Of a stretch of 64,000 nt of DNA, positions 819 through 5,617 are shown piece after piece. A program made the translations under genes and the position numbers. Origin of the DNA: Natrinema salaciae. GTDB taxonomy: Archaea > Halobacteriota > Halobacteria > Halobacteriales > Natrialbaceae. Below the pieces are notes generated by a model. The model worked only from the letters and a program-made list of their open reading frames with translations. It made no database searches and was not told the origin of the DNA. Every line of letters starts with the position of its first letter. Positions within the stretch are counted from its first letter, which is position 1. The stretch covers positions 186,001-250,000 of the forward strand of contig NZ_FOFD01000007.1 in assembly GCF_900110865.1 (NCBI RefSeq), written 5' to 3'.

Positions 819-1832
819 TTACTCGGCGAACTGCCGCTCGAGCAGCGTCGTCACCAGGTACGCGGCCAGCCGCGCCGTGTCGTCGGTCGGATCGTACGGC
901 GGCGCGACCTCCATCAGGTCGGCCGCGCCGACAGCGGGGTGTTCGCCGAGGGTTTCGACGACGGCGAGCGCCTGCGAGGCCGAGAGCCCGCCGGGCTCCG
1001 GGGTACCGGTGCCGGGAGCGACCGAGGGGTCGACCGAGTCGATGTCGAAGGTGACGTAGACGGCGTCGGTCTCGGCGGCGGCGTGCTCGATCGCGTCGCG
1101 GACGACCGGTCGAACCCCGCGCTCCTCGACGTCGCGGATGGTGGACAGTCCGAGGCCGGTCTCCTCGGCGAACTCGAAGAACTCGGGGGACTCGTAGCCG
1201 CGGATCCCCACCTGCGCGACGTGCTCGAAGTCCGTGTGAGGCGATTCCGCGATGTGGTGGGTCGGCGATCCGTGGAAGTCGGTTCCGAAGACCGGGCTCT
1301 CGGCCGCGGTGTCGGTGTGAGCGTCGATCTGGACCAGTCCGACGGTATCGTGCTCGGAGCCCTCCGCGAAGCCCCGGAACGCGGGGAACGTACAGTAGTG
1401 ATCGCCGCCGATGAAGAGCGGCATGACGCCCTGTGCGGCCACGGTCGCGACGTGGGCCGTGATCGACTCGGCGGTCGTCTCGAGGTCCATCGGGAAGACC
1501 GGAACGTCGCCGCAGTCGACGACCTCGAGCGAGCCGAAGTCGACCTGTTTGCCCGTTCGCATGTTCGTCAGTCCGCCCTTGTAGCCCGAGAGGTAGGCGA
1601 GCCAGCCGCTGGCGCGGCGGACGGCCCGCGGGCCGTACCGCGCGCCCGGGCGATTGCTCACGGCCCCGTCGTAGGGCGCGCCGAGGACCGCGACGTCGGC
1701 CCCCGCGACGTCCTCGATCTCGCCGGGGTCGCTCTTGAGGAACGTATCGAAACCGGCGTAGGCGAGTTCGACCTCGCTGCCGGGCGTCGACTCGCGGAAC
1801 GCCGCCGCGCGGCTCCGGTCGTTCGCCGTCAT
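819..1832 (-). CDS. speB: Agmatinase / ureohydrolase family protein
   Basis: Mn-dependent ureohydrolase, most likely agmatinase (agmatine to putrescine plus urea). The 337-residue protein carries the full set of metal-binding motifs: GGDHY, DAHTD, and FDIDSVDP followed by PGTGTPEPGG. The ATG at 1832 overlaps the stop of the upstream aminotransferase gene (ATGA at 1829-1832), so the two are translationally coupled. This start gives the normal family length, whereas the longer frame reaching 2153 lies inside the neighbour. Other ureohydrolases such as guanidinobutyrase share these motifs and cannot be excluded. Pairing with a class III aminotransferase suggests catabolism of a guanidino compound or polyamine as a nitrogen source. 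Confidence 0.85.
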   Translation of the reverse strand: MTANDRSRAAAFRESTPGSEVELAYAGFDTFLKSDPGEIEDVAGADVAVLGAPYDGAVSNRPGARYGPRAVRRASGWLAYLSGYKGGLTNMRTGKQVDFGSLEVVDCGDVPVFPMDLETTAESITAHVATVAAQGVMPLFIGGDHYCTFPAFRGFAEGSEHDTVGLVQIDAHTDTAAESPVFGTDFHGSPTHHIAESPHTDFEHVAQVGIRGYESPEFFEFAEETGLGLSTIRDVEERGVRPVVRDAIEHAAAETDAVYVTFDIDSVDPSVAPGTGTPEPGGLSASQALAVVETLGEHPAVGAADLMEVAPPYDPTDDTARLAAYLVTTLLERQFAE

Positions 1833-3169
1833 CGGTCGTCCTCCAGTTCGGCGTCGATCGACTCCCGGATACCGGCGACGCCCCGCTCGAGCTGCTCGCG
1901 GTCGATCGAGAGCGGCGGCTGGACCCGCAGGACGTTCTTGTAGTAGCCGCCGACGCCCGCAACGATACCCCGCTCGCGGAGGCGCTTCCCGACGTGTTTC
2001 GCGAACTCGGCGTCCGGTTCGGGCGCGACGCCCGCCGGGCCGGTCCCGGCGTCGGGGTCGACGAACTCGAGGCCCCGCATCAGCCCGAGTCCGCGCGCGT
2101 CGCCGACGACGTCGTACTCGTCCTCGAGCGTGGCGAGTTCGTCGCCGAGCCACGCCCCCTGTTCGCGGGCGTTCGCGAGGACCGCCTCCTCGAGGCGGTC
2201 GATCGTGGCCAGCGCGGCGGCGCAGGCGACGGGGTTGCCGCCGAACGTCGAGAGGTGATCGCCCGATTCGAACGCGTTCGCGATCTCGGCCGGCGCGGTG
2301 AACGCGCCCAGCGGCAGGCCGTTCGCGATCCCCTTGGCCTGCGTGAGGATGTCCGGAACGGCGTCGTAGTGGTCGCTCGCGAAGAGCTTCCCGGTGCGGC
2401 CGTAGCCGGACTGGACCTCGTCGACGATCAGGAGCGCGCCGTGCTCGCGGGCGATCTCCTTGAGCCGACGCAGGTAGCCCGTCGGCGGAACGATGATCCC
2501 GCCCTCGCCCATCACGGGTTCGACGACGATCGCCGCCAGATCGTCCGCAGTGTGGGTGCCGATCACGCGCTCGAGGTCGGCCCCGGTTCGCTCGACGAAG
2601 GTCTCGTCGTCGGCCTCCCGGGAGGGGGAGCGGTAGCGGTACGGCGCGGGCGTGTGCGCGACGTCGTTGATCGTCGGGGCCATGTCGGCCTTGTACGCGT
2701 TGTTGCCGGTGAGCGCGAGCGAGCCGAGGGTGCGGCCGTGAAAGCCCATCTCGAGGGCGACGACCTCCTTCGAGCCGGTGTACTTCCGGGCGAGCTTGAT
2801 CGCGCCCTCGACGGCCTCGGTTCCGGAGTTACAGAAGAACGACTTCTGCAGGTCGCCGGGGGTGATCTCGGCGAGCCGTTCGGCGAGTTCGGCGGCCGGT
2901 TCGTGGGGATGAACGTACGTGCACCCGTGGACGAACTCGTCGAGTTGGGCCTTCGCGGCCTCGACGACGGCGTCGTCACCGTGGCCCACGTTCGTCACGG
3001 CGATCCCCGAAAAGAGATCGAGGTACTCGTTGCCCTCGAAGTCCTCGAGCGTACAGCCCGAGGCGCGCTCGACGGGAACGTGTAGATCCTTCCAGATGGG
3101 CATCAGGTACTCGTCGTACTGGCCCGTGAGCTGTTCGTTGGTCGCGATCGCGTCTGTCTGGCGTGCCAT
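1829..3169 (-). CDS. Class III PLP-dependent aminotransferase
   Basis: Fold-type I, class III aminotransferase of 446 residues, of the acetylornithine/4-aminobutyrate transaminase group. Visible features are the phosphate-binding region CNSGTEAVEGAIK, the FHGRTLGS motif, the cofactor-contacting DEVQSGYGRTG, and the PLP-binding lysine in TQAKGIANGLP. It is first in an operon with the ureohydrolase gene, overlapping by 4 bp. A GABA-type or diamine aminotransferase acting on products of agmatine breakdown would fit, but the substrate is inferred. An 18-bp palindrome lies 11-28 bp upstream of the ATG, and a TATA-like box is near 3225-3232 on the minus strand, so the palindrome sits about where RNA polymerase starts. 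Confidence 0.88.
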   Translation of the reverse strand: MARQTDAIATNEQLTGQYDEYLMPIWKDLHVPVERASGCTLEDFEGNEYLDLFSGIAVTNVGHGDDAVVEAAKAQLDEFVHGCTYVHPHEPAAELAERLAEITPGDLQKSFFCNSGTEAVEGAIKLARKYTGSKEVVALEMGFHGRTLGSLALTGNNAYKADMAPTINDVAHTPAPYRYRSPSREADDETFVERTGADLERVIGTHTADDLAAIVVEPVMGEGGIIVPPTGYLRRLKEIAREHGALLIVDEVQSGYGRTGKLFASDHYDAVPDILTQAKGIANGLPLGAFTAPAEIANAFESGDHLSTFGGNPVACAAALATIDRLEEAVLANAREQGAWLGDELATLEDEYDVVGDARGLGLMRGLEFVDPDAGTGPAGVAPEPDAEFAKHVGKRLRERGIVAGVGGYYKNVLRVQPPLSIDREQLERGVAGIRESIDAELEDDR

Positions 3170-3179
3170 GGTGAAGTGT

Positions 3180-3197
3180 GTGGCATGAGTATGCCAC
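3180..3197. promoter_or_regulatory. 18-bp palindrome, candidate operator of the aminotransferase-ureohydrolase operon
   Basis: A perfect 7-bp inverted repeat, GTGGCAT and ATGCCAC separated by GAGT, lies between the predicted TATA box (3225-3232) and the start codon (3169) of the aminotransferase gene. This position suits a repressor blocking initiation or elongation. The binding protein is unknown. Confidence 0.5.
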
Positions 3198-3323
3198 CCT
3201 TGTACGACGGTACGAGGTGCGGACCAAAAGCTTTGAGGTCTCGAATTCCGCGAATCAGATCACAACTGGCTCCCATCTCGAGTTCGCCGATCGCGTCTAC
3301 TGGGCGGACGAGGCGGTAATATC

Positions 3324-3339
3324 TGGAAATTCTATTCCA
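3324..3339. promoter_or_regulatory. NrpR-type operator (TGGAA-N6-TTCCA)
   Basis: The sequence TGGAA, six bases, TTCCA contains the GGAA-N6-TTCC operator consensus known for the nitrogen repressor NrpR of Methanococcus maripaludis. It lies in the 240-bp intergenic region between the aminotransferase operon and the NrpR-like gene, 71 bp before the start of the latter and about 40 bp before its predicted TATA box (near 3378-3386). Autoregulation and/or control of the divergent operon is inferred. Confidence 0.55.
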
Positions 3340-3409
3340 CCACAGAGGGATGCGGTTGCACCGGCCGGTCGACAGGAATTTTTATCCGGGGCGGGAAACC
3401 CCCGAACGA

Positions 3410-4378
3410 ATGGTCCCGAACGACGACCGGCGTACCTACGACCTGCTGCGTCTGATCGGCGACAACGAGCCGATCGGAAGCATCCGACTCGTCGAGCAGA
3501 TGCAGCGTCGCGGCTACTCCATCAAGGGCCGGACGATTCGACTCGTGCTCTCCGACCTCGACGAGGCCGGACTGACGGAGAAGGTCGCCGGAAAGGGCCG
3601 CCGACTGACCGACCGGGGTCGGGACGAGCTCGAGCGCGGCGACGTCGGCGGCCGGCTCGAGAGCGTCCGCGAGCGGATCGCGACGCTGACGAGCCGCGTG
3701 ACGTACGACCCGACCGACGACGTCGGCGAACTGGTCGCCGGCACGGCCGTGGTTCCCGAGGCCGAGCTCGAACCGGCGTTCGACGCCCTCGAGCGGCTGC
3801 ACGACTCGAGCCTCGGCCCGCTTCTGGTGTCGGTGACCGACGACGGGACGCGGGACGGCATCGAACTCGCCTTTCCCTCGAGTATCTCGGTGGACGGCGT
3901 CTTGCTCTCTCACGGCATCGACTCGCGACTGATCACGGCGGGGCTGGTCGAGTACGACGGCGAGGTCCGACGGTACATCGACGCGATCAGCGGTGAGAAC
4001 GCGACGATGGACGTAACCAGTCTGCTCGTCGAGGCGGGACGGACCGACGTCGAACGGTACCTCGAAGGTGGAACCGGCGTATTCATCGTCGACAATCGGG
4101 AGTTCCCCGTCACGCGTTTCGAGGAGGGGCGAGACCTCGCGACCGCGACGTGCGACGCGATCGGCGGCGCGGTCGATCTGCGGCGACCCCGCGAGTCGGG
4201 GCCGTTTCCGGCGGGCAATCCGAGCTGGGACTTCGCCTCGCTCACGTATCTCGGAGCCAGCGAAACGGCGATCTCCCTGCTGTACGAACGCGGGCTGGCG
4301 ACCGACTGGGAATCGCTCGGCGGGATACGACCGCGCAGCGCGTTCGAACCCGCGCCGACCGCCCGTCGGCGACCGTAA
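3410..4378 (+). CDS. nrpR: NrpR-like transcriptional regulator (winged helix + NrpR/DUF128 domain)
   Basis: Predicted nitrogen-responsive repressor of 322 residues. Residues 1-70 form a winged helix (RTYDLLRLIGDNEPIGSIRL, then a recognition helix and a wing with GKGRRLTDRG). The rest matches the NrpR domain: SVDGVLLSHGI, AGLVEYDGEVRRYIDAI, a segment corresponding to the methanogen motif with NFREIP (here IVDNREFP), and a C-terminal half. In methanogens NrpR represses nitrogen genes and 2-oxoglutarate releases it from DNA. The ATG at 3410 is chosen because a TATA-like box lies about 26 bp upstream; the frame extends 20 codons further but has no better start. It is divergent from the aminotransferase operon, with an NrpR-type operator between them. 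The domain architecture appears shorter than two-domain NrpR. Confidence 0.82.
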   Translation: MVPNDDRRTYDLLRLIGDNEPIGSIRLVEQMQRRGYSIKGRTIRLVLSDLDEAGLTEKVAGKGRRLTDRGRDELERGDVGGRLESVRERIATLTSRVTYDPTDDVGELVAGTAVVPEAELEPAFDALERLHDSSLGPLLVSVTDDGTRDGIELAFPSSISVDGVLLSHGIDSRLITAGLVEYDGEVRRYIDAISGENATMDVTSLLVEAGRTDVERYLEGGTGVFIVDNREFPVTRFEEGRDLATATCDAIGGAVDLRRPRESGPFPAGNPSWDFASLTYLGASETAISLLYERGLATDWESLGGIRPRSAFEPAPTARRRP

Positions 4379-4419: not shown

Positions 4420-4752
4420 TCGAAACGAGCGTCGGCGCTCCGATGCGAGCAAGATCCGTACAGACTGACGAAGACGACGGCGACGTGGGCGCGTTTGCCG
4501 AACCGTTCGGTGACGTACTCGCTGGAGTGCAGTCCCTGCGGGAAGCGGCGGGCATCCGGAGTGCGACGGGGATGCCGAGGATGTCCCCCGCCCACATCCA
4601 CGTCGCCGCGACCGACGCGGTCGGCAGACCGACCTGCGCGCGACCGCCCAGAGGCCGAACGGTACGCACCCGATTCCCGGACTACTCGTCGCCGTCACCT
4701 CGAGGCCGAACCGATCCGGCGATCCCGTCCCCACGGTGGCATGTGTGTTCAT
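4420..4752 (-). pseudogene. Frameshifted remnant of an unidentified gene
   Basis: Three successive minus-strand segments in different frames have the C/G-rich third positions typical of coding DNA here. The first, from the ATG at 4752, includes FGLEVTATSSPGIGCVPFGL. The second, about 4655-4548, includes AATWMWAGDILGIPVALRMP. The third, about 4548-4430, includes FPQGLHSSEYVTERFGKRAH and VAVVFVSLYGS. Joined, they would read as one protein interrupted by two frameshifts. I do not recognise the family. The plus strand between the NrpR-like gene and the cyclase gene shows no better reading. Sequencing errors could also produce this picture. Confidence 0.4.
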
Positions 4753-4841
4753 CTCTCGCCCGACACATCGGGCCCGCCTCGGAGGGATTGTGGTAGAGAA
4801 TATCGCACACTGTTATGCGTGTCGATCACCGGATACCGCGT

Positions 4842-5483
4842 ATGGCCGTCGATCTGACCCACCCGATCGAAACCGGCATGCAGACCTATCCCGACGATCC
4901 CGCCGTCGCCGTCCGGCGACACGCGAGCCACGAGGACCACGGTGTCCGCGTCGACGCCCTCGAGTGTGGGAGCCACACCGGTACGCACGTCGATGCACCC
5001 GCCCATACGGAGCCGGACGGGAAGACGCTCGAGTCGTATCCGGTCGAGCGATTCGTTTTCGACGCGGTCCGGGTCGATTGCCGCGATTTCGTGGCCCGCG
5101 AGCCGATTCCAGCGGCCCGAATTCCGGACGCGGACGTCGACCTCGTGGCCTGCTGGACCGGCTGGGACGACCACTGGGGGACCGAGACGTATCTCGAGCA
5201 TCCGTACCTCTCGCCGGCGGCGGCCGACGCCTGCGCCGACCGGGGATTCGACGTCGCCGTGGACGCGCTCAATCCCGATCCGACCCCGACCGAGAACGCC
5301 GCCGCGGACGAACCCGAGGGGTTCCAGGTCCACCACGCGCTGCTCGGCAACGACCTGCTGATCCTCGAGAACCTGACGAACCTCGGAGCGGTCGGGGATC
5401 GGTTCGAACTCCGGGCGTACCCGCTGGCGCTGGCGAGCGACGGCGCGCCGGTGCGGGCCGTCGGCGTCGAACACGTGGAATAA
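4842..5483 (+). CDS. Cyclase family protein (kynurenine formamidase-like metal hydrolase)
   Basis: A 213-residue member of the cyclase/KynB-like hydrolase family, which are metal-dependent amide or lactone hydrolases. It has the family signature SHTGTHVDAPAH (H-x-G-T-H-x-D-x-P-x-H), which supplies the metal ligands, and starts with the usual DLTHPIETGMQTYPDDP segment. The ATG at 4842 places that segment at the very N terminus, as in homologues; an in-frame ATG at 4815 would add nine residues. The gene stands alone. The physiological substrate is unknown, because haloarchaeal members occur without a complete tryptophan-degradation pathway. Confidence 0.85.
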   Translation: MAVDLTHPIETGMQTYPDDPAVAVRRHASHEDHGVRVDALECGSHTGTHVDAPAHTEPDGKTLESYPVERFVFDAVRVDCRDFVAREPIPAARIPDADVDLVACWTGWDDHWGTETYLEHPYLSPAAADACADRGFDVAVDALNPDPTPTENAAADEPEGFQVHHALLGNDLLILENLTNLGAVGDRFELRAYPLALASDGAPVRAVGVEHVE

Positions 5484-5617
5484 CGCTTCCACCCGTTCGC
5501 GCCGTTCGCGGCGTCGGAGCGGCGACGGATCGACTGTCGACGTCGACGAGAGACGCCGGGACGCGTCGACGCGGAACGGCCGCTCGCTGCTCGCGTCAGG
5601 CCGGTCGAAACCCGCGG

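Follow-up and report, generated by a model that had tools for sequence, protein, structure and literature searches.

Regulator gene and predicted operators in the window

The window analysed here, a stretch of 64,000 nucleotides of contig NZ_FOFD01000007.1 of Natrinema salaciae, contains a gene for an NrpR-like protein beside intergenic DNA with a palindrome of the methanogen NrpR type, which raises the question of whether a haloarchaeal regulator reads the methanogen operator, and whether it places the divergent aminotransferase-ureohydrolase operon under nitrogen control. The operator of Methanococcus NrpR is GGAAN6TTCC (PMC2723118), and according to a transcriptome study of Haloferax volcanii, haloarchaea have not conserved a master regulator of the NrpR type (PMC6801745). 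The features concerned are listed below by their positions in the window, the operators being given without strand.

819-1832, minus strand: agmatinase-type ureohydrolase, second gene of the divergent operon (Pfam Arginase)
1829-3169, minus strand: class-III aminotransferase, first gene of the divergent operon (Pfam Aminotran_3, E 2e-117)
3180-3197: predicted operator O1, GTGGCATGAGTATGCCAC, of the form GTGGCA-N6-TGCCAC, centred 19.5 bp upstream of the aminotransferase ATG
3323-3340: predicted operator O2, CTGGAAATTCTATTCCAC, of the form CTGGAA-N6-TTCCAC, containing TGGAAATTCTATTCCA and centred 78.5 bp upstream of the regulator ATG
3377-3386, plus strand: TATA-like box of the regulator promoter, predicted position, conserved in four Natrinema
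3410-4378, plus strand: NrpR-family regulator R1, 322 aa, with a winged helix (residues 18-74) and one NRD domain (residues 85-261)
4480-4700, minus strand: remnant of a sodium:solute symporter gene, 5' part (gene intact in relatives, Pfam SSF there)
4736-4753: eroded operator GTGGCATGTGTGTTCATC upstream of the cyclase gene, for which relatives have GTGGTAATAGGTTGCCAC (alignment of four Natrinema)
4842-5483, plus strand: putative cyclase or kynurenine-formamidase-like hydrolase (Pfam Cyclase), a recurrent neighbour
5475-5492: predicted operator O3, GTGGAATAACGCTTCCAC, spanning the stop codon of the cyclase gene

The Pfam search confirmed that a winged-helix plus NrpR-domain protein adjoins the site, as a sequence-only reading of this DNA had described. 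R1 has the NrpR-family architecture of HTH_12 followed by NRD1_2, with residues 18-74 matching the former (E 7e-12, 45.5 bits against a cut-off of 21.4) and residues 85-261 the latter (E 1.9e-22, 80.1 bits against a cut-off of 25). Residues 82-204 also match PDB 3nek, the solved NRD of MJ0159 from Methanocaldococcus jannaschii (E 4.9e-6), and alignment with 14 methanogen NrpRI proteins places the recognition helix at about residues 39-52, including G40, R41 and R44. The AlphaFold model of R1 (four sequences; mean pLDDT 50, pTM 0.34) was too poor for a fold search. We assign the start of R1 to the ATG at 3410 and not to the in-frame ATG at 3350, since the orthologues begin there and the conserved TATA-like block lies between the two ATGs; the transcript is probably leaderless.

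The palindrome TGGAA-N6-TTCCA that had been pointed out in the intergenic DNA is present at 3324-3339 as TGGAAATTCTATTCCA. This motif occurs twice in the window against 0.01 expected, and the looser GGAA-N6-TTCC four times against 0.81 expected. O2, which contains it, lies 143 bp from O1; both fit GGNA-N6-TNCC, and in the intergenic alignment of four Natrinema orthologues the arms of both are invariant while the 6-bp centres vary. O1, which had been missed, is the stronger and better conserved of the two predicted operators. An O1-equivalent site was found in 21 of the 22 loci with this aminotransferase, and a second operator on the regulator side, at 141-146 bp, in nine R1 loci. The GGAA site first noticed is real and conserved, but it is a secondary site on the regulator side, and GGAA is not the main haloarchaeal form, which is GTGGCA-N6-TGCCAC.

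In the window the symporter gene is reduced to a remnant and the symporter-cyclase operator is eroded, yet O1 to O3 are intact; this gene and this operator (4480-4753) are both intact in three related Natrinema genomes. The half-site of O3 beyond the stop codon is retained in all four Natrinema, and O3 may be a relic or a site serving another transcript. Locus L078, from another family, has an O3-like site directly before a gene for aldehyde ferredoxin oxidoreductase, which there comes after the cyclase gene; in the window no such gene adjoins the cyclase.

Occurrence and paralogues

Searches for NRD proteins gave 27 positive genomes out of 125 in the family and 44 out of 391 in the class, and also one Haladaptatus contig. 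Neighbours and sites were mapped in 5-19 kb around the NRD genes, giving 65 haloarchaeal loci. A genome carries up to three paralogues (R1, R2 and R3), each with a cluster of its own. The tree resolves R2, R3 and the methanogen proteins as one group each, with R1 as the remainder of the R1+R2 clade. R1 genes adjoin the aminotransferase and/or the ureohydrolase, mostly divergently, and a sodium symporter and a cyclase-like hydrolase often lie beyond. R2 genes have a ureohydrolase or a class-I/II aminotransferase on one side and a PotABCD-like transporter and a carbon-nitrogen hydrolase on the other, and the R3 gene lies just downstream of a second class-III aminotransferase gene (AT2) in the same operon.

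The genome of the window holds a second amine-catabolism cluster (locus L043, G000:C7:85000-104000) with R2 and R3 and distinct operator types.

G000:C7:94.3-95.4 kb: R2 paralogue
G000:C7:100.4-101.4 kb: R3 paralogue

Pfam matches in G000:C7:91-104 kb comprise a histone-deacetylase-family protein, a class I/II aminotransferase, a CN hydrolase, an ABC permease, ATPase and binding protein, and a class-III aminotransferase; the histone-deacetylase family includes acetylpolyamine amidohydrolases. R2 and R3 resemble R1 in their domains, core operator and kinds of neighbours (aminotransferases, ureohydrolase, PotABCD-like transporter). R3 differs from R1 in having Glu40, the operator CCGGAA-N6-TTCCGG and an operon shared with its own aminotransferase; R2 differs in that its GTGGCA-type sites lie in the promoter of the ureohydrolase or aminotransferase gene, and probably in that of the transporter as well. 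A literature search for work on NrpR-like control of polyamine genes in haloarchaea found nothing.

Conservation of the predicted operators

The results showed that GGNA-N6-TNCC lies in the scanned promoter interval of 45 of the 47 R1/R2 loci and of all 18 R3-operon promoters, the loci being counted with relatives treated as separate observations across several haloarchaeal families, so that the statistics, with related rows, are not independent trials. The exceptions are L074, in which GTGGCATACAATTGCCAC lies beyond the scanned interval with its centre at -258, and L096, in which the regulator gene is broken. Counted over intact regulators, the motif is found in the regulator's own or operon promoter in 46 of 46 R1/R2 cases (one of them 258 bp away) and 18 of 18 R3 cases. 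Comparative footprinting places GGNA-N6-TNCC at the predicted target promoters, in line with membership of the NrpR family.

To avoid bias, all 4-base inverted repeats with spacers of 0-16 were enumerated in 46 R1/R2 upstream regions together with 30 Markov shuffles. GGCA-N6-TGCC came out on top with 25 of the 46 regions, while the best shuffle reached 7. With at most one mismatch allowed, GTGGNA-Nk-TNCCAC was found in 30 of the 46 regions at k=6, and no other k in the range 0-12 gave more than 4.

In the 4.86-Mb genome of the window, GTGGNA-N6-TNCCAC occurs at only two places, both in the cluster of the window; TGGCA-N6-TGCCA has two sites, both at NrpR-like loci, and CCGGAA-N6-TTCCGG a single one, which is the AT2-R3 promoter. 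The genome-wide count of GTGGNA-N6-TNCCAC was dropped as proof because regulator-free genomes hold 0-5 scattered matches, about two per genome, similar to regulator-bearing genomes, and weight is therefore placed on the locations of the sites and their conservation across species. Five perfect TGGAA-N6-TTCCA sites lie outside the window, and inspection of the ORFs placed none of them at nitrogen genes. The site TGGAAGGCGACTTCCA at L005 1501-1516 (G000:C1:891456), about 46 bp upstream of an ORF that by eye resembles a secreted surface-layer-type protein, is probably due to chance.

Recognition code

The operator of Methanosarcina NrpR is CGGTA-N6-TACCG, and two methanogen genomes have this sequence in front of a gene for a methylamine corrinoid protein. 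The earlier proposal that the methanogen operator code is conserved in haloarchaea held up in the comparison of genomes: the core GGNA-N6-TNCC is conserved at haloarchaeal NrpR-like genes, and a core recognition code therefore appears to be common to the two groups. Conservation of the site upstream of orthologous regulators, which had been suggested as a check, was also observed, with half-sites invariant in four Natrinema and GGNA-N6-TNCC maintained at the scale of the 65 loci.

Beyond the core, the consensus is split into GTGG[C/A/T]A for R1/R2 and CCGGAA for R3. Every one of the 46 R3 half-sites has C as its outer base; the 112 R1/R2 half-sites have mostly T (80), less often C (30) and rarely G (2). 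All 18 R3 proteins carry Glu at residue 40, as do 13 of the 15 methanogen rows (one of these 15 with a doubtful frame), and every R1/R2 protein carries Gly, Asp or Ser there. R41 is found in all rows. R44 is present in every haloarchaeal row and in 14 of the 15 from methanogens, and the GG core is likewise conserved. This pattern is as would be expected if residue 40 reads the outer base, with few independent changes behind it: the association between residue 40 and operator comes essentially from one paralogue divergence.

Probable target genes and proposed mechanism

The closest solved structures to the aminotransferase are 4-aminobutyrate and putrescine aminotransferases. The ureohydrolase scores 177 bits with TIGR01230 (NCBIfam agmatinase), narrowly above the cut-off of 174.3; its metal-ligand motifs GGDH, DAHTD and DIDSVDP are intact by eye, and it is about equally near to solved structures of agmatinases, guanidinobutyrase, guanidinopropionase and proclavaminate amidinohydrolase. 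The pathway is probably one of guanidino or polyamine catabolism.

The operators lie close to the start codons of the catabolic genes. In most loci the operator centre precedes the aminotransferase ATG by about 10-22 bp, and for AT2 the distance is about 12-28 bp; in the genome of the window the operator of the ABC binding-protein gene overlaps the likely start codon. Judged from the TTTATTA box of the AT2 promoter of this genome, the operator there spans about +7 to +24, and O1, if positioned from the conserved AAAGCTTTTRG block, would lie approximately at the start of the aminotransferase transcript. All three placements, at the aminotransferase, AT2 and ABC binding-protein genes, would be blocking positions. 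In 14 of 18 loci the cyclase gene has an operator about 65-115 bp upstream. O2 precedes the TATA-like box of the regulator by about 50 bp, a position that would suit activation or looping as well as repression, and the second operator at 141-146 bp suggests autoregulation or cooperation across the intergenic region.

With considerable confidence we therefore take R1 to be a pathway-specific, ligand-released repressor of the NrpR family, the aminotransferase-ureohydrolase operon being its probable target. An R1 dimer would read the palindromes GTGG[C/A/T]A-N6-T[G/T/A]CCAC; bound at O1, which covers positions of about +1 to +18 in the aminotransferase transcript, it would block initiation of the operon, and bound at O2, 143 bp away, it would tune its own promoter and/or cooperate with the dimer at O1. 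When the cell turns to an amine or guanidino substrate, R1 would be released by a small ligand on the NRD domain, the candidates being a pathway metabolite or, as in methanogens, 2-oxoglutarate.

Loci with damaged genes serve as natural tests, and persistence of the sites beside a truncated aminotransferase speaks for this reading. In N. ejinorense (L040, L104) the aminotransferase is cut to about 94 codons, while the ureohydrolase is intact and both operators are retained; the truncated gene lies at L104 5412-5693, and a further one beside an intact ureohydrolase, with operators retained, at L053 7454-7657. At L096 3412-4339 the R2 gene is broken, the ureohydrolase gene is truncated and their shared operator is missing, the cluster being otherwise intact.

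Alternative explanations

That the palindromes are chance products of GC-rich intergenic DNA might be argued from the few unrelated TGGAA-N6-TTCCA sites of the genome, but arms conserved around a varying spacer and a spacing fixed at 6 speak against it, and the shuffles, spacer controls and footprints rule it out, leaving this explanation practically negligible. The sites could instead be operators of another conserved regulator of amine genes, with the NrpR-like gene a mere neighbour, given that binding of R1 is a prediction and that conserved gene clusters have the sites in their divergent promoters. This we consider very improbable, as the sites match the published NrpR operator in core and spacing, occur at every intact regulator locus despite varying neighbours, and have a paralogue-specific consensus that tracks the recognition helix. 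A different question is the sign of the effect: R1 might activate the operon from O2 and O1, or switch between activation and repression, and both the location of O2 upstream of the TATA-like box and the retention of two operators at 141-146 bp in nine loci would fit. O1 and the AT2 operators, however, coincide with the predicted transcription start or follow it closely, where a bound protein would block, and the known family members are repressors (PMC11957540, PMC9765008), so that activation seems improbable, if less so than a different regulator.

The strongest competitor, though still an unlikely one, is that R1 is a true nitrogen regulator that senses 2-oxoglutarate and, within a general control of nitrogen, derepresses the operon when nitrogen is limiting. 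Its domain architecture is that of Methanosarcina NrpRI, the NRD residues G106, S158, D162, G163, G169, D191, D201 and P233 are shared, the operator core is the same, and the enzymes of the operon free nitrogen from amines. Against this, GGNA-N6-TNCC was absent upstream of amtB and both glnA genes of this genome, and these canonical nitrogen genes were rejected as targets; the regulator is patchy (44 of 391 haloarchaeal genomes); at several NRD positions that methanogens conserve, the residue is consistently different (N111 to G/S, C157 to S, P171 to D/N, P202 mostly to V, N228 to D); and up to three paralogues occur in one genome, each at its own cluster. Of the earlier idea that the operon is under nitrogen control, the operon as a probable target stands, but general nitrogen control left no sign, because amtB and both glnA lack the operator, the gene is confined to 44 of 391 genomes and the operators cluster at amine-catabolism genes. 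On present evidence R1 is best read as an NrpR homologue that represses guanidino/polyamine catabolism locally, and not as a global nitrogen regulator.

Significance and comparison with known systems

NrpR-family regulators thus occur in about one in nine haloarchaeal genomes with operators recognisable from the methanogen code, in contrast to the literature view of non-conservation (PMC6801745). The analysis yields a specific, testable amine-catabolism regulon in haloarchaea and a protein-DNA code in which one residue is a candidate for setting specificity, and presents a case of a global regulator turned local. Tentatively, and at somewhat less than even chances, we suggest that an ancient nitrogen repressor was split in haloarchaea into paralogous repressors of guanidino/polyamine catabolism that would sense a pathway metabolite instead of 2-oxoglutarate, and that the code kept GG-N-A-N6 while diverging through residue 40 (Glu with outer C; Gly, Asp or Ser with outer T), so that the paralogues avoid cross-talk.

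Among known systems, the single-NRD NrpRI of Methanosarcina is like R1 in its winged helix and one NRD, its length of about 325 aa, its invariant R41 and near-invariant R44, and its GGNA-N6-TNCC operator. R1 differs from it in having Gly and not Glu at residue 40, T and not C as the preferred outer base, several altered NRD residues, and local amine-catabolism targets instead of glnA, nif and amt; a partner like NrpRII, a second NRD protein that lacks an HTH, was not seen for haloarchaeal R1. The NrpR of Methanococcus maripaludis belongs to a class with a second NRD domain and, in the work of Lie et al. in 2005, reportedly uses two operators at nif. Its operator GGAAN6TTCC (PMC2723118) is the core of O2, and unlike what is proposed for R1 it is a global nitrogen repressor released by 2-oxoglutarate (PMC11957540, PMC9765008).
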